Source of the DNA: Burkholderiaceae bacterium
GTDB lineage: Bacteria; Pseudomonadota; Gammaproteobacteria; Burkholderiales; Burkholderiaceae_D
Direction: 5' to 3'
Assembly (NCBI GenBank): GCA_023653025.1
Contig: JAMNXS010000019.1
Span: 1 to 42,191 of the forward strand
DNA: 42,191 bases
Part shown: positions 3,142 to 15,463 of the stretch, piece by piece
How the letters are laid out: each line of letters opens with the position of its first letter
Position numbering within the stretch: the stretch's first letter is position 1
Position numbers and translations under genes: made by a program
Notes under the pieces: model-generated
Told to the model about the DNA's origin: nothing
The model's database searches: none
Seen by the model: the letters and a program-made list of their open reading frames with translations, nothing else

Positions 3142-3626
3142 CCCAGCCGCCATTTCGCATCGGACAAGGCTACGACTGCCACGCGCTGGTGCCGGGCCGC
3201 CCGCTGATCATCGGCGGCGTGATGATTCCGCACCGCGCCGGCCTGCTCGGCCACTCGGACGCCGACGTGCTGCTGCACGCGATTACCGATGCCCTGTTCG
3301 GTGCCGCCGGGCTGGGCGACATCGGCCGCCACTTCCCGGACACCGACCCGGCATTCAGGGGCGCGGACTCGCGCGCGCTGCTGCGGGAGGCGGGCAGGCG
3401 CGTGGCCGCTGCCGGCTATGCGGTCGGCAATATCGACGCCACCCTCATTGCGCAGGCGCCGAAGATGGCGCCGCACCTGCCCGGCATGATTGCGCACATC
3501 GCCGCCGACCTAGGCATCGCGCCGGAACAGGTCAACCTGAAAGCCAAGACCAACGAGCGCCTCGGCTGGGAAGGCCGCGAGGAAGGCATCGCCGCGCAGG
3601 CCGTGGCACTCTTGCTCGCGAAGTGA
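3138..3626 (+). CDS. ispF: 2-C-methyl-D-erythritol 2,4-cyclodiphosphate synthase IspF
   Basis: IspF cyclises CDP-methylerythritol 2-phosphate to MEcPP, releasing CMP; it is a zinc-dependent homotrimer in the cytoplasm. ATG at 3138 overlaps the ispD stop as ATGA. The 162-residue product begins [17 protein letters not shown], carrying the metal-binding Asp and His of the GxDxH-like motif, followed by GRPLIIGG and [19 protein letters not shown] with the third metal-ligand His. [10 protein letters not shown] and the C-terminal [20 protein letters not shown] match the family. Only this in-frame portion is the gene; the open frame extends further upstream inside ispD as a shadow. The gene ends with a double stop, TGATAA. 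Confidence 0.97.
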
Positions 3627-3642
3627 TAATAGTTCTCATCTA
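3624..3642 (+). promoter_or_regulatory. Weak Fur-box-like sequence upstream of rubrerythrin
   Basis: TGATAATAGTTCTCATCTA starts on the ispF stop codon and resembles the GATAATGATAATCATTATC Fur consensus (about 11 of 19 positions by eye). It lies in an AT-rich 200-bp gap before the rubrerythrin gene, whose product binds iron. This is a visual match only. Confidence 0.25.
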
Positions 3643-3834
3643 GCGATATTGCGATCTCCATTGTTTTTATTAATCGATCGCATTGATTAAGCCAATTTGA
3701 GATTTCGACTCTCCGCATCCACAATTCGAATCCGGAAACTTAGACTGGTCAGTCGGTTTTCAGTCGCGGTCGTTTGTCGCTGCAGGCCAGCACTCAGCGG
3801 CGTCGGCCTCATTTGAATTCACAAGGAGATGCAA

Positions 3835-4257
3835 ATGTCGAAACTGAAAGGCTCCAAGACCGAGGCAAACCTGAAGGAAGCGTTTGCCGGCGAGTCGATG
3901 GCTAACCGCCGCTACCTGTACTTCGCGAACAAGGCCGACGTGGAAGGCCAAAACGACGTCGCGGCACTGTTCCGCTCGACCGCTGAGGGCGAAACTGGCC
4001 ACGCACACGGCCATCTCGAGTACCTCGAGCAAGTGGGCGACCCGGCGACCGGCCTGCCGATCGGCTCGTCCCGCCAGAACCTGATGGCCGCCGTGGCCGG
4101 CGAAACGCACGAGTACACCGACATGTACCCGGGCATGGCCAAGACCGCTCGTGACGAAGGCTTCGACGAGATCGCCGACTGGTTCGAGACCCTGGCCAAG
4201 GCCGAGCGTTCGCACGCGAACCGCTACCAGAAGGCCCTCGACGCACTGGTTGACTGA
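3835..4257 (+). CDS. Rubrerythrin-type diiron protein (no rubredoxin domain)
   Basis: Rubrerythrins are ferritin-like diiron proteins that reduce hydrogen peroxide in the cytoplasm. The 140-residue product is a four-helix ferritin-like domain. Glu ligands are visible in [19 protein letters not shown] (helix 1), [17 protein letters not shown] (ExxH), [18 protein letters not shown] and [11 protein letters not shown]. It has no C-terminal CxxC rubredoxin module, so electrons must come from another protein. An ATG at 3829 directly abuts the AAGGAG at 3823-3828, so the ATG at 3835, six bases further on, is the better start. It is followed by a two-cluster Fe-S oxidoreductase and DUF3501 on the same strand, a trio I remember as recurring in betaproteobacteria; the Fe-S protein could be its electron donor (inference). 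Confidence 0.92.
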
Positions 4258-9214: not shown

Positions 9215-9291
9215 GCGGCCGTAGCTCAGCTGGATAGAGTACTTGGCTACGAACCAAGGGGTCGTGGGTTCGATTCCTGCCGGCCGCGCCA
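9215..9291 (+). tRNA. tRNA-Arg (anticodon ACG), CCA encoded
   Basis: The acceptor stem GCGGCCG (9215-9221) pairs with CGGCCGC (9281-9287). The D arm contains AGCTCAGCTGGATAGAG. The anticodon stem CTTGG/CCAAG encloses CTACGAA, giving anticodon ACG, which becomes ICG and reads CGU/CGC/CGA. The T arm is GTGGG TTCGATT CCTGC. Discriminator G and encoded CCA finish the 77-base gene. It has its own promoter and a strong hairpin follows. Confidence 0.97.
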
Positions 9292-9322: not shown

Positions 9323-9359
9323 AACGGGTTAGTGTCAAAAGCACTAACCCGTTTTCCTT
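9323..9359 (+). terminator. Rho-independent terminator after tRNA-Arg
   Basis: AACGGGTTAGTG (9323-9334) pairs perfectly with CACTAACCCGTT (9342-9353) around a 7-base loop, followed by TTCCTTT. The 12-bp stem overlaps the stop of the minus-strand remnant at 9344, so it can serve both directions. Confidence 0.8.
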
Positions 9360-9538
9360 TCCAAATTCTCCAAATTTTTGGACACTTTTTGGGCACTCCT
9401 CTCCCGGGCCTCAAAGATCAGCGTCTGCAGCGACTTGTTCCAGCTGCTTCCCTCATCCTTGATCTTCTCCAGCGCCTCGTGGATCTCCCTCACCATCGCC
9501 ATCGAGCAGTGATCGGTGATGGACTCGTGCTCATTCAA
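9344..9538 (-). pseudogene. Unrecognised small reading frame, probably a gene remnant
   Basis: A 64-codon frame containing ITDHCSMAMVREIHEALEKI and SLQTLIFEARERSAQKV has amphipathic, protein-like composition, unlike a random shadow. It begins only with TTG (9538). It is in the same frame as the preceding higA-like gene, open right after that gene's TGA at 9590, so it could be the severed end of a larger gene. I see no ribosome binding site and recognise no family. Its stop lies inside the tRNA-side hairpin. Confidence 0.35.
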
Positions 9539-9589: not shown

Positions 9590-9889
9590 TCAGGCGTGAG
9601 CCGGTTCGCTGCGGCGTTGGACGCGGCGCTCGATCTCTGCGCGAGTCGGCAGCGTTTTGAGGTCATAGTCCATCTGCAGGTTCAGCCATGAGGTGGCGTC
9701 GCCCCCGAAATAGTGCGCAAGCCGCTCAGCAGTGTCGGGGGATATGCCGCGTCGCTCCTTGACTATTTCATGGATGCGAGTGGCGGGGACAGCGAGTGCA
9801 ATCGCCAGCGCATTAACGCTCATGCCAAGCGGGATGAGAAATTCTTCCCGCAAGATTTCGCCGGGATGGATCGGGCGCATACGGTTCAC
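9590..9889 (-). CDS. HigA-family XRE antitoxin/regulator without an adjacent HigB
   Basis: A 99-residue helix-turn-helix protein of the HigA type. It reads RMRPIHPGEILREEFLIPLG, then SVNALAIALAVPATRIHEIV (HTH) and RRGISPDTAERLAHYFGGD. HigA proteins neutralise HigB RNases and repress their own operon, but no HigB-like gene sits at the expected position upstream. Instead a GNAT toxin gene ends 15 bp before it on the same strand. The start is GTG 9889 or ATG 9880; neither has a convincing Shine-Dalgarno, consistent with translation coupled to the gene before. It may act as an additional repressor of the toxin operon (inference) or be an orphan. Confidence 0.85.
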   Translation of the reverse strand: MNRMRPIHPGEILREEFLIPLGMSVNALAIALAVPATRIHEIVKERRGISPDTAERLAHYFGGDATSWLNLQMDYDLKTLPTRAEIERRVQRRSEPAHA

Positions 9890-9904: not shown

Positions 9905-10408
9905 TTATACGGTGAAGCCACGAATGCTGGCCATCGGCAGAAACAGCGTCAGTGGCGACGAGGGGAGCGCAATCAGGCCGTGGTGTCGGTAAAAGGCCGC
10001 GGCGCTTTCATCTTTTGCATCCACCAGCATCGCAAACGCGGCGATCTCGGCTTTGCCAATGCGTGCCAGCGCATCCGCGAGCAACGCGCCACCCAGCCCG
10101 ATGCCCTTGTGACGCTCATCGACGGCTAAGCGACCCATGCGCACCGCCGGCACCGTCGGGTAGCGCGGCAGTTTTTTCGCGACCTCCTCAGGCAAATCGC
10201 CCAGCAAAATGCTGGTAGAGGCGAGGGTATAAAAGCCGGCGATGCGCTCATCCGCATCGAGCGCAACGAAGCAGGCAGTGATGCGCCGCCGGATGTCTTG
10301 CGTGACCTGGCGGTGGAAGTAGTGGTCGAGCGGGAGCGACCCGCAGCGAAAATCCGAGCGATCGAATCCGTCTCCAAGCGGGACGACGCGAAACCTCGGG
10401 GCAGTCAC
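9905..10408 (-). CDS. GNAT-family acetyltransferase toxin (TacT-like)
   Basis: A 167-residue GNAT protein. TacT-type toxins acetylate the amino acid on charged tRNAs and block translation. The acetyl-CoA site reads VRMGRLAVDERHKGIGLGGA (beta4 plus the P-loop-like turn) and the catalytic-type Tyr lies in SAAAFYRHHGLI. Earlier segments CGSLPLDHYFHRQVTQD and AGFYTLAS are typical of this toxin clade. It starts at GTG 10408 and overlaps the DUF1778 antitoxin stop by four bases (GTGA), the standard antitoxin-toxin layout. A HigA-like gene follows 15 bp downstream. Confidence 0.88.
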   Translation of the reverse strand: MTAPRFRVVPLGDGFDRSDFRCGSLPLDHYFHRQVTQDIRRRITACFVALDADERIAGFYTLASTSILLGDLPEEVAKKLPRYPTVPAVRMGRLAVDERHKGIGLGGALLADALARIGKAEIAAFAMLVDAKDESAAAFYRHHGLIALPSSPLTLFLPMASIRGFTV

Positions 10409-10680
10409 TTGGCTGCGATCAATTTGGCGCGGCGCTTGAAAGCACGCTTCAGACCAGCGCCAGGCTCCGGCGGGTCAAGCAATGCCTTGGCAAAACACTC
10501 CTGATCAGATACCGACAGTTTGAGCATGTCGGCTTGTCTCACTGCTTTTTGTGCAGCATCCTGTACCGTAGTCACCACAAAGTCGGTCACGGTGCGCCCT
10601 TGCAGTTCGGCTGCCCGCTTGAGCAGGGCATGCAGATCCGGGCTGATTCTGGCTTCGAGTCGGGCAGTAGGGGCGGGCAT
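10405..10680 (-). CDS. DUF1778 ribbon-helix-helix antitoxin (TacA-like)
   Basis: A 91-residue antitoxin. The N-terminal ribbon-helix-helix region reads RLEARISPDLHALLKRAAEL followed by QGRTVTDFVVTTVQDAAQKA; this half binds the operator. The C-terminal tail (about 55-91, ending KRAFKRRAKLIAAK) would wrap the GNAT toxin. ATG 10680 has AGGAGA seven bases upstream, which decides the start although the frame is open for another hundred codons. It is the first gene of the tacA-tacT-higA-like run and likely represses it. Confidence 0.88.
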   Translation of the reverse strand: MPAPTARLEARISPDLHALLKRAAELQGRTVTDFVVTTVQDAAQKAVRQADMLKLSVSDQECFAKALLDPPEPGAGLKRAFKRRAKLIAAK

Positions 10681-10781
10681 GGCGGGTTCTCCTGTGGGGC
10701 CTATTGTACGGCTTACTGCCGTATGAATCAAGGCCGCCACGACCCGGTTCCTGCGGCCGAGACCTCCTGCCGCCCGCCCGT

Positions 10782-12101
10782 TCAGTTTCCCCCTGCCTCC
10801 CGCTCGCGCGACCGCCGCCAGAACCTGCGCAGCATCGGCTTCACCGTCATGCCATGGACGAGGATCGACAGCACGACGGTCACCAGCACCAGCGCGATCA
10901 TGTCGCGCGCCAATGCTTCGGGCAGGCCGTGGTTGATCGCGTACATCAGGTAGTAGAGGCAGCCGATGCCGCGGATGCCGAACCAGCCGCACATCCAGCG
11001 GATGCGCCAGCTGGTGGCCGTGCCCGCGAGCGACGCGAGCACGCTCAGGGGCCGCGCAACGAAAAACAGAAAGCCCGCCAGCGCCAGCGCCGACCAGCTC
11101 CAGTAATGCGTCAGCATCATCCCGCCCAGCAGCAGCACCAGCATCAATTCGGACAGCCGCTCCAGATGCTCCTTGAACACCAGCGCCTCGGCGCTGACGA
11201 TGGCCGGCGACTCGATGCCGGCGGCTTGCGGGTCGGCCGGCTCGGCCACATCGGCGTTCAGCAGCTCAGGCCGTATGCCGGCCTTGCGGGCCAGCGCAAG
11301 CTCGGTCTGGCGCAAGCCCACGCCGGCGAAAAACACGGCAAGGAATCCCCAGGCGAGAACCGTCACCGTCAGGCCGTAGACCACGGCGATCAGTCCGAGT
11401 CCGACGAAGTCGTCGAGCACCTCATGCTTGGTCTGCGGGCCGCGCAAGGCCCAGCCCGCGCGCGCCATCAGCGCCCCCAGCAGCACGCCGATCGCGATCG
11501 CCGCCAGCGTGGCCCACAGCACGTCGACCAGCAGCCAGCGCAGGCCGAAGGGACCGATCTCGTGCTGGCCCAGCAGGCCGAGGCCGAGTACGACGAAAGG
11601 AAAGGCCGTGCCGTCATTCATTCCCGCTTCGCTCGTGAGCGTAAAGCGCAATTCGTCGTTGTCGCCCGGGTGGCGCGACTGCACGTCGGTCGCCAGCACC
11701 GGATCGGTGGGCGCGAGCACCGCACCCAGCAAGATGCCGGCGCCCACGGGCAGGCCCAGCACCAGCACCGAGAACGCCGTCACCAGCAAAACGCTGACCA
11801 GCATGCCGCCCCAGGCGAGCATCAGCGCCGGTCGCCAGCGGGGCAGCCTGACGGGTACCGGCATCTTCACGCCGGCCGAGAACAGGGAGATCAGCACCGC
11901 GACTTCAGTGGCGACTTCCAGCACCGACGCCTGCTCGAGCGGATCGAAATGGAAGACATCCAGCCCGCTTGGTCCCAGCGCGATGCCGGCGAGCAGGTAG
12001 ACAATGGCCGCCGTCAGCGGCAGCGTGCCGATCAGGGAAGCGGTCAGCCCGCGTGCAAGCATCAGCAAGCCGACCAGCAGAAACCAGTGTGTCGTCTCCA
12101 T
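10782..12101 (-). CDS. CPA1-type monovalent cation:proton antiporter
   Basis: A 439-residue inner-membrane antiporter exchanging Na+ (or K+) for protons. About 12 hydrophobic segments run from LVGLLMLARGLTASLIG onward. The CPA1 signature is clear: AGILLGAVLAPTDPVLATDV carries the ion-binding Asp (TDP motif), and SEAGMNDGTAFPFVVLGLG carries the family ND motif. Later GWFGIRGIGCLYYL matches the GxRG segment of NhaP-like proteins. It lacks a long cytoplasmic TrkA-C tail. It is a single gene; upstream of it (12102-12333) I see no other gene. NhaP-like proteins are the nearest described relatives; the ion specificity cannot be read from the sequence. Confidence 0.9.
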   Translation of the reverse strand: METTHWFLLVGLLMLARGLTASLIGTLPLTAAIVYLLAGIALGPSGLDVFHFDPLEQASVLEVATEVAVLISLFSAGVKMPVPVRLPRWRPALMLAWGGMLVSVLLVTAFSVLVLGLPVGAGILLGAVLAPTDPVLATDVQSRHPGDNDELRFTLTSEAGMNDGTAFPFVVLGLGLLGQHEIGPFGLRWLLVDVLWATLAAIAIGVLLGALMARAGWALRGPQTKHEVLDDFVGLGLIAVVYGLTVTVLAWGFLAVFFAGVGLRQTELALARKAGIRPELLNADVAEPADPQAAGIESPAIVSAEALVFKEHLERLSELMLVLLLGGMMLTHYWSWSALALAGFLFFVARPLSVLASLAGTATSWRIRWMCGWFGIRGIGCLYYLMYAINHGLPEALARDMIALVLVTVVLSILVHGMTVKPMLRRFWRRSREREAGGN

Positions 12102-12333
12102 CTTTCCATCCCGCGCCGGCCCGTTCTTTCATCGACACGGCAGCCCGCCATTGATTCCTGCACCGGCGCATGCCGGCGATCAAGCCTGGCTCGTCCAGTG
12201 CGCTGCGCACTTGGCCGCGCGCAAGCCGGCTTTTTCGCGAGCCCGCAGAGTTACGCATCGTCAAGGCCGCTAGCAACGCGATACGGATCATGGTGAGGCG
12301 CTGATCGAGCGCTTTTTTTCACAGGAGGATTGG

Positions 12334-12627
12334 ATGAAATTTTCCGCCACGGTTGTCGCGCTGTCGCTGACGGCGCTCGTTTCGCTGCCATCGCTGGCGG
12401 CCCCGGTGAGAATGACGGATGCCCAGCTTGACCTTGTGGTGGCCGGCACCGACTATCACTACTGTCCGCCGGAAACGACGAAGGGAAATAATGGCTGGGG
12501 CAATGGGGCCGATGGCACCAATGCGGGCAGTCTCAGAGGTGCCACGTCTGCGTCGAAAATCGCTGGCGGCAACCTGACGGTGGCCGACAAGATCAACACC
12601 AACCCCACCACTTCCAGCGGGCGCTGA
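12334..12627 (+). CDS. Small Sec-exported protein with a double-glycine-like motif; putative cargo of the Fap-like locus
   Basis: A 97-residue protein with a strong AGGAGG site eight bases before ATG 12334. A Sec signal peptide covers residues 1 to about 22 (MKFSATVVALSLTALVSLPS, then LA). Residues 27-38, MTDAQLDLVVAG, align position by position with the double-glycine leader consensus (LSxxELxxIxGG), with AG in place of GG. The remaining 59 residues are small, polar and Gly/Asn/Thr-rich (KGNNGWGNGADGTNAGS, NPTTSSGR) with a single Cys. The next gene, 42 bp on, is a C39 peptidase and the third is a FapF-like pore. It is not a homologue of FapB/FapC that I can recognise (no repeats). Cleavage after Gly38 by the neighbour is an inference. 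Confidence 0.75.
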   Translation: MKFSATVVALSLTALVSLPSLAAPVRMTDAQLDLVVAGTDYHYCPPETTKGNNGWGNGADGTNAGSLRGATSASKIAGGNLTVADKINTNPTTSSGR

Positions 12628-12669
12628 TCCATGGTGACGCACCGGCCGCTCTGCGAGGGAGGACGATCG

Positions 12670-13215
12670 ATGCCGATGCGAGGGATCTGCGGCGTGATCC
12701 TGCTGCTCGCCTGCATCGAGGTCGGCGCAGAGCGGCCGGTGCGGTCGCTGCTGGAGTACCGCACCGAAAACCTGATTCTCCAGCAGTGGGACAACAGCTG
12801 CGCCGCCGCGGCGCTGGCGACCCTGCTCACCTACGAATGGCGACGACCAGTGACCGAGCGCCAGGTCGCGCGCGCCCTGTTGGGGCAGACCGACGAACTG
12901 CGCGTGCGCACGCGCGGCGGCTTCTCGCTGCTCGACATGAAGCGCTACCTGGCCGGCATCGGCATTACGGGCGAGGGCTACGGCAGCCTGTCGCTCGACG
13001 ATCTGCGGCCGTTTGCGCCGGCCATCGTGCCGGCCAGCCTGCGCGGCTTCGATCATTTCGTGATCGTCCGAGAGGTGGGCGCCACGCATGTCGCCATCGG
13101 CGATCCGGCTTTCGGCAATTACCGGATGACGCATGCCGCCTTCCTCCGCAGCTGGAGCGGCACCGCTTTCCGCCTGCAACCTCTTGCACCCCTGATGCCC
13201 GGTAAAGAACAATGA
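12670..13215 (+). CDS. Periplasmic C39-family cysteine peptidase (FapD-like)
   Basis: A 181-residue protein with a signal peptide (MPMRGICGVILLLACIEVGA) and one C39 domain filling the rest. The catalytic set is complete: Gln38 in LQQWDNSC, nucleophile Cys44 in NSCAAAALATLL, His129 in GFDHFVIV and Asp145 in IGDPAFG. C39 peptidases normally sit on ABC exporters and cut double-glycine leaders; a stand-alone Sec-exported C39 protein is the arrangement of FapD in Pseudomonas functional-amyloid operons. Start ATG 12670 follows GAGGGAGGA; an upstream ATG at 12631 would give a charged N-terminus without a signal. It overlaps the next gene by ATGA. Confidence 0.85.
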   Translation: MPMRGICGVILLLACIEVGAERPVRSLLEYRTENLILQQWDNSCAAAALATLLTYEWRRPVTERQVARALLGQTDELRVRTRGGFSLLDMKRYLAGIGITGEGYGSLSLDDLRPFAPAIVPASLRGFDHFVIVREVGATHVAIGDPAFGNYRMTHAAFLRSWSGTAFRLQPLAPLMPGKEQ

Positions 13216-14195
13216 ACAGACTTCCCGTAGTGATTGCGTCCCTGCTGGCGGCGTCCGTCCATGCACAGGACCTGAACCAGCTGCGCCGCCAGCTAGCCGA
13301 CAAGGAGGCCGAAGTCCGGCAGCTGCGGCAGCGCATCGACACGCTCGAACGTGAACTGACGCCGCGCCGCGTGCCGGCCCCCACCCGCACTGCTGCGCCC
13401 GAGGACGAGGACGGCGACAGCAACCGCGCGCTGGAGCGCGCACTGGTGCGCGAGCGCGGGCTGCTGCTGTCGGCGCGCACCGTCGAGGTCGAGCCGAACT
13501 TCGTCTACTCGCACCTCGCCATTGATGGCCTGAGGCGCGATGCCTACGGTCCGGGCCTCGCGATCCGCGCCGGCCTGCCGGCGCGCTGGCAGCTCGAGGC
13601 CGGCGTACCGTATGTCTGGGAGCGCCGCGAATCCGGCGGCACGGTCAGCCGGGCCCATGGGGAGGGTGATGCCTATGTTGCCGCCTCGCGGCAATTGCTG
13701 ACGGAGCGGGGATCGCTTCCGTCGCTGATCGGCACGCTGTCGTGGCAGTTCTCGAACGGACGCAACACGCTGTTCGATGCCGGCCAGCCGGTGGCGCTGG
13801 GCAGCGGCTTCGATGGCGTCAGCGCGAGCCTGACTGCGCTCAAGCGCACCGACCCGCTGGTGTTCTTTGGTAGCTATGCCTTTACCCACCTGCGTCCGGC
13901 CCGCAAGGGCGTGGGCGAGGTTGATCTCGGCAATTCGCACGCGCTGCGCTTCGGGGTCGCGCTGGCCACCAGCCCTACCACGTCGCTGCGCACGGCCTTC
14001 AGCTTGCGTACCTTCGAGCGGGCGCGCATCGGCGGCCTGGCCGTTCCGGGAACCGACGAGAGCGTCGGCCTGCTCGAGCTCGGTGCATCGGCCGTACTCA
14101 GTCCATCGACGGCGATCGACGTGCTGGTCGGCGCCGGCGTCACGCGCGCCGCGCCGGATTTCCGGATCGGCGTTGCGCTGCCGATCCGGTTCTGA
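13212..14195 (+). CDS. FapF-like outer-membrane protein: N-terminal coiled coil plus beta-barrel
   Basis: A 327-residue protein: signal peptide (1-18, ending VHA), a heptad coiled coil at about 20-53 (LNQLRRQLADKEAEVRQLRQ, RIDTLERELT), a Pro/acidic linker, then alternating amphipathic strands to a C-terminal Phe (VALPIRF), as expected of an outer-membrane barrel. Segments VEVEPNFVYSH, GSGFDGVSASLTALKRTDPL, FFGSYAFTHL and VGAGVTRAAPDFRIG resemble FapF, the trimeric pore that exports Pseudomonas amyloid subunits and carries a periplasmic coiled coil. It is shorter than FapF as I remember it. Its start overlaps the C39 gene by four bases, so the two are coupled. It could instead be a generic transport barrel, but the partner genes favour the Fap reading. 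Confidence 0.8.
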   Translation: MNRLPVVIASLLAASVHAQDLNQLRRQLADKEAEVRQLRQRIDTLERELTPRRVPAPTRTAAPEDEDGDSNRALERALVRERGLLLSARTVEVEPNFVYSHLAIDGLRRDAYGPGLAIRAGLPARWQLEAGVPYVWERRESGGTVSRAHGEGDAYVAASRQLLTERGSLPSLIGTLSWQFSNGRNTLFDAGQPVALGSGFDGVSASLTALKRTDPLVFFGSYAFTHLRPARKGVGEVDLGNSHALRFGVALATSPTTSLRTAFSLRTFERARIGGLAVPGTDESVGLLELGASAVLSPSTAIDVLVGAGVTRAAPDFRIGVALPIRF

Positions 14196-14204
14196 GCGAC
14201 CTTG

Positions 14205-15087
14205 TCAGAGCCAGCCGGCGCGCCGGAAGCGGCGAAACAGAAGGACCGACACGGTGGCGATGATACCGATGGCCATCGGGTAGCCCCAGCGCCAGCTCAG
14301 CTCCGGCATGAATTCGAAGTTCATACCCCAGATGCCGGCCAGCGCCGTCGAGGCGGCGAAGATCGAGGCCCAGGCCGCCAGCTTTTTCGTGATCTCCGAT
14401 TCCTCGATGCCGACCATCGCCAGATTCACCTGAATGGCGGTGGAGATGGCTTCGCGTATCGTGTCGAGCCGGGTGGCGAGCCGGGCGAGATGGTCGTTCA
14501 CGTCGCGGAAGTATTCCTGCGACGCCTGGCAGACCGGCGGCACGCGCCCGCCGTGCAGCTTGCCGATGAATTCCAGCGTCGGCAGCACCGCATGGCGCAC
14601 GGTCATGGTCTTGCGCTTCAACGCGTACAGGTGCTCGATGTTGCGGCGCGCGCTGTTCTTTTCGAAGATGGTCGATTCGATCTGCTCGAGTTCGGCTTCG
14701 AGCAGTTCGAGCATCGGGAAATAGCCGTCGACCACCTGGTCGAGGATCGCGTAGAACACGAAGCCCGGGCCTTGCCTGAGCATCTCGGGTTCGCGCTCGC
14801 AGCGTTCGCGCACGCCGCGAAAGTCGAGGTTGCTGCGCGTGCGCACCGACAGCACGAAATCCGGATGCACGAAGATGTCGACCTCGCCGACCCGGATCTC
14901 GTCATCGGCCAGTTCGAGCAGATGCACGACGCAGAACAGCGTGTCGCCGTATTCATCGAGCTTCGGCCGCCTCTTTCAGCGCGACCCAGACGAAACCGTT
15001 CGGGCGCCCGAGGTAGTCGCTGATATCCGGCGGCTCCAGCTGCGCCAGCCGCTGGCCGTTTTCGTAGGCGATGCAATTGATCAGCAT
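14205..15087 (-). pseudogene. corA-like magnesium/cobalt transporter, disrupted by an internal deletion and frameshift
   Basis: The frame opens at ATG 15087 (MLINCIAYENGQRLAQLEPP) and runs to WVALKEAAEAR, then hits TGA at 14953-14955. CorA homology resumes in another frame: LDEYGDTLFCVVHLLELADD continues to the GMN-motif end (LAGIWGMNFEFMPEL) with two C-terminal membrane helices, ending at 14205. Between the halves, the residues that intact CorA proteins carry (roughly 25-30 by memory) are missing. The junction is GCGGCCGAAG (14961-14970), which would fit the coding sequence on both sides in different frames, as expected after deletion between short direct repeats. A 240-residue frame starting at 14927 keeps the pore but lacks most of the cytoplasmic domain. 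Confidence 0.8.
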
Positions 15088-15100
15088 GCGTGAATATCGT

Positions 15101-15463
15101 TCAGGCCGGCAGGCGGTACTCGAGCAGCTGCCGGATATCGACGTATTTCAGCGCATTCACATGCGTGCACTCGAGCACGACATACGGCGCCATCCCGGCG
15201 TCGAAGGCTTCCTTCCAGCGCAGGGCGCACAGGCACCAGCGGTTGCCCGGCACCAGTCCCGGGAAGCGGTATTCCGGACGGGGCGTGCCGAGGTCGTTGC
15301 CGCGCTGCTTGGAAAACTCGAGGAACTCCTTCGTGACTTCCGCGCAGATCACATGCGAGCCGCGGTCGCTCTCGTCGGTGTTGCAGCAGCCGTCGCGGAA
15401 GTAGCCCGTCATCGGGTCGGTGGAGCAGGGCTTGAGCGGCGTGCCCAGGACATTGATGGCCAT
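15101..15463 (-). CDS. DUF2237 family protein
   Basis: A 120-residue cytoplasmic protein of unknown function. The family is recognisable from NVLGTPLKPCSTDPMTGYFR, DGCCNTDESDRGSHVICAEV, TKEFLEFSKQRGNDL and PGNRWCLCALRWKEA. Several conserved Cys (CST, GCC, CLC) suggest metal binding or redox chemistry, though this is not shown. ATG 15463 is chosen because the family begins there; the open frame extends 45 codons further up. It lies 13 bp upstream of the broken corA on the same strand and could have been its operon partner. Confidence 0.88.
   Translation of the reverse strand: MAINVLGTPLKPCSTDPMTGYFRDGCCNTDESDRGSHVICAEVTKEFLEFSKQRGNDLGTPRPEYRFPGLVPGNRWCLCALRWKEAFDAGMAPYVVLECTHVNALKYVDIRQLLEYRLPA

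Follow-up and report, generated by a model that had tools for sequence, protein, structure and literature searches.

The closest described counterparts of the locus reported here are the Fap operons of Pseudomonas (FapABCDEF), in which a Sec-exported C39 peptidase (FapD) is paired with a barrel carrying a coiled coil (FapF). FapD is required for amyloid secretion; what it cuts was described as unclear in a 2017 paper (PMC5557850) and as undetermined in a 2018 review (PMC6173800). According to the earlier paper, the Fap proteins are without canonical C39 sequences, FapE is the suspected substrate, and no peptides came from its first ~70 residues (PMC5557850). A review of December 2025 states that FapD is thought to process the N-terminus of FapE and part of FapF (PMC12822426). 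Pairing of fapD and fapF is already published, and their co-localisation in five further phyla is mentioned in the 2018 review (PMC6173800). The double leader described below is the part that we did not find in print: within the open-licence PMC literature, we found no description of a cargo bearing both Sec and double-glycine signals together with a periplasmic C39 peptidase.

The putative pilus system Fil (FilA-F, NCBIfam names) also combines a C39 peptidase (FilB) with a barrel (FilC). PCAT-type (PCAT/AMS) ABC exporters carry the peptidase as one of their own domains, on the cytosolic side (PMC5557850), and the COG4313 barrels are uptake channels for which the corresponding section of the 2018 review reports no C39 partner (PMC6173800).

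The locus lies in a stretch of 42,191 nucleotides (the whole of which we call ‘the window’) from a Burkholderiaceae genome assembly of 2.89 Mb (126 contigs, 95.8% complete). According to the list of open reading frames, three genes follow each other on the + strand, encoding a cargo protein (12334-12627), a C39 peptidase (12631-13215) and a barrel (13212-14195), the last two overlapping by ATGA at 13212-13215, just as a preliminary description of this DNA had claimed. Their features are as follows.

12323-12328, + strand: strong Shine-Dalgarno sequence AGGAGG of the cargo gene, read from the sequence
12334-12627, + strand: cargo gene, small exported protein of 97 residues with a dual leader, homologues in four further genomes
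12334-12399, + strand: Sec signal peptide of the cargo, approximately residues 1-22 (hydropathy, A-x-A-like site by eye; aligned in leader model A5)
12412-12447, + strand: double-glycine-type leader MTDAQLDLVVAG, residues 27-38, predicted cut after G38 (sequence, association with the peptidase clade)
12448-12624, + strand: predicted mature cargo, 59 residues, rich in Gly, Thr and Asn with few hydrophobics (sequence)
12631-13215, + strand: C39 cysteine peptidase resembling FapD and FilB, exported by Sec, probably starting at 12670 (profiles, model; start by eye)
12781-12783, + strand: Gln51 of the peptidase, which we take to be the oxyanion-hole Gln
12799-12801, + strand: catalytic Cys57
13054-13056, + strand: catalytic His142
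13102-13104, + strand: catalytic Asp158
13212-14195, + strand: FapF-like outer-membrane pore of 327 residues (profiles, PDB sequence, AF2, Foldseek)
13272-13358, + strand: predicted periplasmic coiled-coil helix, residues 21-49 (AF2 model)
13425-13451, + strand: short helix ahead of the barrel, residues 72-80, positioned like the plug of FapF (AF2 model)
13482-14177, + strand: beta-barrel strands, residues 91-322 (AF2 model, Foldseek)

The peptidase gene begins 3 nt after the cargo gene, or 42 nt after it if translation starts at 12670. This ATG is probably the true start, because a purine-rich Shine-Dalgarno sequence is seen there by eye and none is seen at 12631. A promoter scan of the locus returned no promoter, with 0.3 expected by chance.

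That the second gene encodes a C39 peptidase with intact Gln, Cys, His and Asp, as had been proposed, is borne out by a match to Pfam Peptidase_C39 (E 2e-12) and by retention of each of the four residues listed above in 106 of 106 aligned C39 proteins. Its nearest NCBIfam families are FapD (E 4.5e-32, score 111, below the cut-off of 330) and FilB (E 2.4e-25, 89 bits, below the cut-off of 475). A structure model (pLDDT 80.4, dropping below 50 at residues 47-54 around Gln51) has as its top Foldseek match 6mpz, a double-glycine protease solved together with a leader peptide. The protein is a stand-alone reading frame with a signal peptide, not fused to an ABC transporter, and its genome holds no other C39 match at E<=0.001; judging from the signal peptide, it would reside in the periplasm. 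The signals of some related C39 proteins contain a lipobox (VAAC in L032 8065-8820, LSGC in L025 5917-6582, VGGC in L031 5878-6582), and these proteins may be lipoproteins; the LLAC of the window protein is borderline by eye.

A Pfam scan of the barrel returned no family over its cut-off. The barrel does match NCBIfam FapF (E 9.5e-12, score 44, far below the equivalog cut-off of 700) and the sequence of the solved FapF in the PDB (E 3.6e-8), and it scores 20.5 with NCBIfam FilC, for which the cut-off is 630. The AF2 model (mean pLDDT 86.5, built from an alignment of 20 rows, one of them the Fap-type barrel of L070) agrees with the coiled-coil and beta-barrel architecture deduced earlier, as it places a helix at residues 21-49, a linker of low confidence at residues 51-69, and then the strands. 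A generic porin or phenol-degradation channel, which the preliminary description had named as the competing identity, is rejected on sequence and fold alike: the first 18 Foldseek matches are all FapF chains, and the related barrel fold of the COG4313 channel (4rl8) appears at ranks 19-20. By analogy with FapF, the short helix at residues 72-80 may act as a plug.

Classical double-glycine leaders recognized by C39 peptidases carry hydrophobic residues at positions -12, -7 and -4, Gly or Ala at -2, and Gly at -1. A second leader of this kind, overlooked in the preliminary description, comes right after the Sec signal of the window cargo. Behind the signal peptide (LPSLA/AP) the sequence reads RMTDAQLDLVVAG; positions -12, -7 and -4 are hydrophobic, position -2 is A and position -1 is G, as in the classical leaders. 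Throughout, signal peptides were assigned by inspection and from hydropathy. Residues G, N, S and T make up 53% of the mature cargo and I, L, V, F, M, W and Y make up 14%, a composition suited to transit in an unfolded state. The cargo has no Pfam or NCBIfam match at E<=1. A likeness to large reading frames of L027 and L030 (E 0.002) was dismissed as low-complexity, and the L027 frame failed the coding filter.

The trio recurs with the same cargo family in four further genomes (L019, L020, L138 and L139), so that the conservation whose absence would have counted against the earlier proposal was in fact found; judged by the sequences, this recurrence is beyond chance. The closest named relative is L019, from an Oxalobacteraceae MAG, with 80% identity across the C39 protein. 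These four cargos also have the leader, and their mature parts share GxNGWGNG...NTNPTxSxGR. The same type of leader precedes unrelated cargos in L021 and L032, and in all seven of these loci, the window included, cargo, C39 and barrel genes stand in this order on a single strand. The locus is patchily distributed, since only 3 of 21 genomes of its own genus have a C39 match.

Both flanking genes are on the - strand, with a Na+/H+ antiporter gene upstream and a CorA-family gene downstream. The 5' end of the latter (14205-15140) looks broken or misassembled, because its profile match begins only at position 61 and in-frame stops lie upstream. A comparison with empty sites was uninformative for the antiporter, as none of the six congeners matched it at E<=1e-60; one of the six matched the corA-like protein. 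A tRNA-Arg(acg) gene is present ~3 kb upstream of the trio (9215-9291, + strand). A mobile island was considered and we make no claim for one: no repeat of the tRNA end occurs in the repeat families listed (20 of 21), and the GC content is unremarkable. Nearby on the - strand are a HigA-family antitoxin (9590-9889; NCBIfam 7e-30), adjoined by a short reading frame without a match (9344-9538), and a GNAT acetyltransferase with a 4-nt overlap with a frame weakly matching YlcI/YnfO (9905-10992), which by analogy looks like a GNAT-type toxin-antitoxin pair.

The distribution of relatives was surveyed with a query built from eight C39 proteins of trio type (A4). At E<=1e-15 this query matches 102 of the 294 genomes of the family. 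Its scores are bimodal, with 17 genomes at 225-295 bits (hereafter ‘compact’) and no other match above 166. From this survey all 17 compact places and a few lower-scoring ones were fetched; the 52 stretches from an order-wide survey and the 20 from a class-wide survey are part of the places listed. Of 108 C39 loci, 99 have a barrel within the stretch fetched. In a FastTree phylogeny of 106 C39 proteins (midpoint root; fragments L108 and L118 dropped; one locus included twice, L039 = L072), a clade with support of 0.98 holds exactly 25 loci, namely the 22 compact ones plus L188, L190 and L197. Thirteen compact loci had been picked by C39 score alone in the 294-genome survey; L021, L032, L033, L112 and L113 entered the compact set with their cargos already noticed, and L188, L190 and L197, from the class-wide FapD search, were recognized by their cargos before they were placed in the tree.

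One or more exported double-leader proteins are encoded within ~7 kb of the C39 gene in 23 of the 25 clade loci (18 loci with 47 cargos, together with L032, L107, L188, L190 and L197), which lends sequence support to the earlier suggestion that the peptidase processes the peptide. These loci, their paralogues and sister species are not fully independent, because there are close relatives among them (L112/L113, L144/L147, L151/L153), and the Sec signal found in all 47 cargos is so by construction, because the filter requires a hydrophobic N-terminus. The leader is retained while the mature part varies between loci and among many paralogues. Most clade cargos are small, with one L190 cargo reaching 601 residues; L107 has three at ~6-7 kb from its C39 gene, and L143 has six, five of which pass a stricter filter. 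No double-leader cargo occurs in the fetched stretch of L153 or L151, and the genome of L151 has one on another contig. Both are compact C39-barrel pairs without a nearby cargo, and a 756-aa TPR-like reading frame is seen by eye immediately upstream in L151. The pairing of peptidase and pore is looser in 6 of the 24 clade loci having a barrel, because there the barrel gene lies 2-3 kb off on the opposite strand. Several loci (L143 3192-5936, L146, L148 and L149) hold tandem cargos, up to six, whose ends resemble SPVxxxQI...GNxxxxxSGNFxxIRQ. Those scanned gave no Pfam match over cut-off; from its sequence, this end is perhaps a one-repeat amyloid-like unit.

The association of leader and clade was evaluated with a generic leader pattern in the 22 compact loci, without L188, L190 and L197. 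Within 5 kb and on the C39 strand, 34 of 68 signal-bearing reading frames match it, versus 1 of 80 others, and shuffles predict 0.66; without the window the counts are 33 of 64 versus 1 of 65. These frames were called mechanically and filtered, crudely, by codon-position GC and hydropathy, and the matches fall in 16 of 22 loci. A leader model (A5) was also built from 28 leaders of 17 loci, with the -1 Gly at model position 40. At E<=1e-6 it matches 15 of 17 compact-C39 genomes versus 1 of 277 others (G610) among the 294 family genomes, a contrast that is partly circular because 17 of the loci found had served to train the model. Of the two remaining compact genomes, G013 matches at 4e-4 and G509 has no match. 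At E<=0.001, matches extend to 36 genomes, 20 of them without a compact C39, and in 18 of these 20 the match stops at model position 34 or earlier and so does not reach the Gly.

Matches outside the training set come from G113 (three cargos), G471, L188 and L197. Among 399 genomes of the order, the five matches at E<=1e-4 are the compact G000, G064, G109 and G113 plus G094, which is matched weakly over positions 3-32; the compact G013 has no match at this threshold. When A5 was run on the 8837 mechanically called reading frames of the fetched loci, 11 frames outside the training loci matched at E<=1e-4, 10 of them in compact loci (three in L113, which is sister to a training locus, three in L188 and four in L197) and one in L194. 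One L188 match (3364-3939), in a frame that overlaps a second called one, is possibly a miscall. Scores outside training are weak for L032 (1.2e-4) and L190 (0.02). The L194 frame (1525-1839) encodes a leader-like protein (MSSQQMASITGEG) and adjoins a C39 gene of a different clade. Finally, a model of three trio cargos only (A2) matches a cargo over nearly its full length in four of the 294 genomes; all four are compact, and two of them, G631 and G490, come from outside its training. Weaker A2 matches (E 0.001-0.01) are leader-bearing neighbours of compact C39 genes in G572, G437 and G531; other weak ones lie beside a less close C39 gene in G656 and beside no recognized C39 gene in G533, G613 and G670.

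Against this background the relation to Fap can be stated more closely. The window shares with Fap the exported C39 peptidase and a pore of the same fold, but its C39 falls in the compact clade of 25 (0.98), outside the FapD clade formed by 17 Fap-type loci (0.99; 18 tips, one locus twice), and it is accompanied in this clade by one or several short cargos with AG or GG leaders. The preliminary description had reported FapA, FapB, FapC and FapE as absent. For FapC this agrees with the lack of any match at E<=1 in the window's own genome, with a profile that matched in 3 of 14 controls, none over cut-off; the FapE profile likewise has no match in this genome, and no control matched it either. 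Since the C39 is not a member of the FapD clade and the genome yielded no FapC, the sequences place the locus in a sister class of Fap rather than in Fap itself. The ‘reduced, separate class’ proposed earlier thus survives as a separate one, whereas ‘reduced’ is unsupported because the C39 tree places the locus as a sister lineage.

The Fil system shares with the window its C39 and barrel and, like loci related to it, has sites of the form LSxx[TS]G[QR] behind the signal of FilA-like and neighbouring proteins. Fil differs in having a FadL-type transporter (FilD), longer cargos and a separate tree group, as judged from L100, the only locus scanned with NCBIfam. The combination of FilB and FilC with FilD was not encountered here, as a corA-like gene follows the barrel and the tree group differs. 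The peptidase fold and the leader rule are shared with PCAT/AMS, which also supplies the top structural match (6mpz). There, the peptidase is part of an ABC exporter in the cytosol, whereas the window peptidase stands alone with a signal and its presumed substrate has a Sec signal of its own.

The leader also offers a view of Fap. The gene that follows fapD in 17 Fap-type loci, identified as fapE by its position, encodes, behind the signal, a site with spacing equal to that of the cargo leader, ending in RG[KR] rather than AG or GG. In these loci (L070-L076, L121, L178-L186) the site takes the form LSDxxLxxxRG[KR][YF], with RG[KR][YF] in 16 of 17 and TGKY in L076 by eye. The protein at this position in L181 matches NCBIfam FapE at 1.2e-24, below cut-off. 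When 14 Fap-type FapE proteins were aligned with five FapE-like proteins of a middle group, the latter chosen because they read RGGF at the site, the Gly of the site alone was invariant, apart from Met1, and the Arg before it nearly so. We regard RG[KR][YF] as a candidate FapD cleavage site. Leader-like sites are also seen in proteins at the FapA position, in L073 829-1158 (SDASLKQISG), L076 9557-10051 (LDDQVLSRQRGG) and L070 3057-3677 (LSDEDAGAVASG); the L073 protein has no NCBIfam match. In middle-group loci (L079, L080, L081, L085, L088, L090, L101, L102 and L030), a small gene before the C39 gene has an LxxxRGG-type site and a protein end resembling TGxNxIxxxxFxxxxGxPxxIQNxGxN, and the gene after the C39 gene often reads LDxxRGGF.

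The reading that we favor, with a probability of roughly three in four, is a minimal export route with two signals. The 97-residue cargo, the peptidase and the barrel would each pass the inner membrane via Sec. The periplasmic C39 peptidase would then recognize the second leader of the cargo by its hydrophobic residues at -12, -7 and -4, its A or G at -2 and its G at -1, and would cleave after Gly38. The freed, unfolded peptide of 59 residues would leave through the FapF-like pore with its periplasmic coiled coil and plug-like helix. The sequences establish the identities of the genes, the leader and the link between leader and C39 clade, whereas cleavage, the order of the steps, exit and external use are inferred. 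Our tentative best guess is that the cargo serves outside as a small surface or matrix protein, a role favored because many sister cargos form tandem families with repeat-like ends and because the trio includes no candidate immunity gene.

Cutting by the peptidase might instead be directed at the periplasmic part of the barrel, thereby opening or shutting the pore and leaving the cargo intact. Such cutting has been proposed for FapD and FapF (PMC5557850, PMC12822426), and 9 of 21 clade barrels do have GG or GA within the 55 residues before the barrel anchor (four with GG, five with GA only). The other 12 have neither, three further barrels lack the anchor, and the window barrel itself is without GG or GA in these 55 residues, which disfavors a cut in its linker at this locus; with a complete leader in the cargo as well, we judge this explanation improbable. 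A bacteriocin-like route, in which a cytosolic C39-ABC transporter uses the double-glycine leader and the Sec-like N-terminus is incidental, would account for a leader of bacteriocin type, and some relatives do have weak C39 matches in frames of 715-1169 aa that are probably C39-ABC transporters. However, the trio has neither an ABC transporter gene nor a further reading frame that could serve as an immunity gene, the sole C39 of this genome (E<=0.001) is the stand-alone one, and a signal-like N-terminus precedes the leader in clade cargos (as the filter required), so this route seems very improbable indeed.

The cargo, which is single here, small and without a known domain, could also be a periplasmic or lipoprotein-like partner of the C39-barrel pair, such as a chaperone or a pore plug, that is never released. 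The presence of up to six cargos in other clade loci, with widely divergent mature parts, is unlike a conserved part of a machine and makes such a partner unlikely. A true amyloid system, with the mature cargo as fibre subunit, would be compatible with two-signal export, and is suggested by the FapF-type pore, by the repeat-like SPVxxxQI...GNxxxxxSGNF ends of many sister-locus cargos and by the G, N, S and T content of the window cargo. The latter nevertheless has no SPVxxxQI stretch and no family match, and for this locus we consider an amyloid possible but rather doubtful.

Export by Sec, processing by a periplasmic double-glycine protease and exit through a FapF-type pore, with interchangeable short cargos that a second leader marks, may represent a general class in Gram-negative bacteria. 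We hold it slightly better than an even bet that this is so, in which case Fap and Fil would be specialized branches, and the cut made by FapD would fall in FapE, and perhaps in FapA, at the corresponding site, LSDxxLxxxRG[KR][YF]. The clade described here plainly displays a site of this kind beside the protease and the pore, which turns the question of the FapD target into a test of one residue. If the proposed route is right, the leader might also be of use as a transferable label by which short unfolded peptides are exported from Gram-negative cells.
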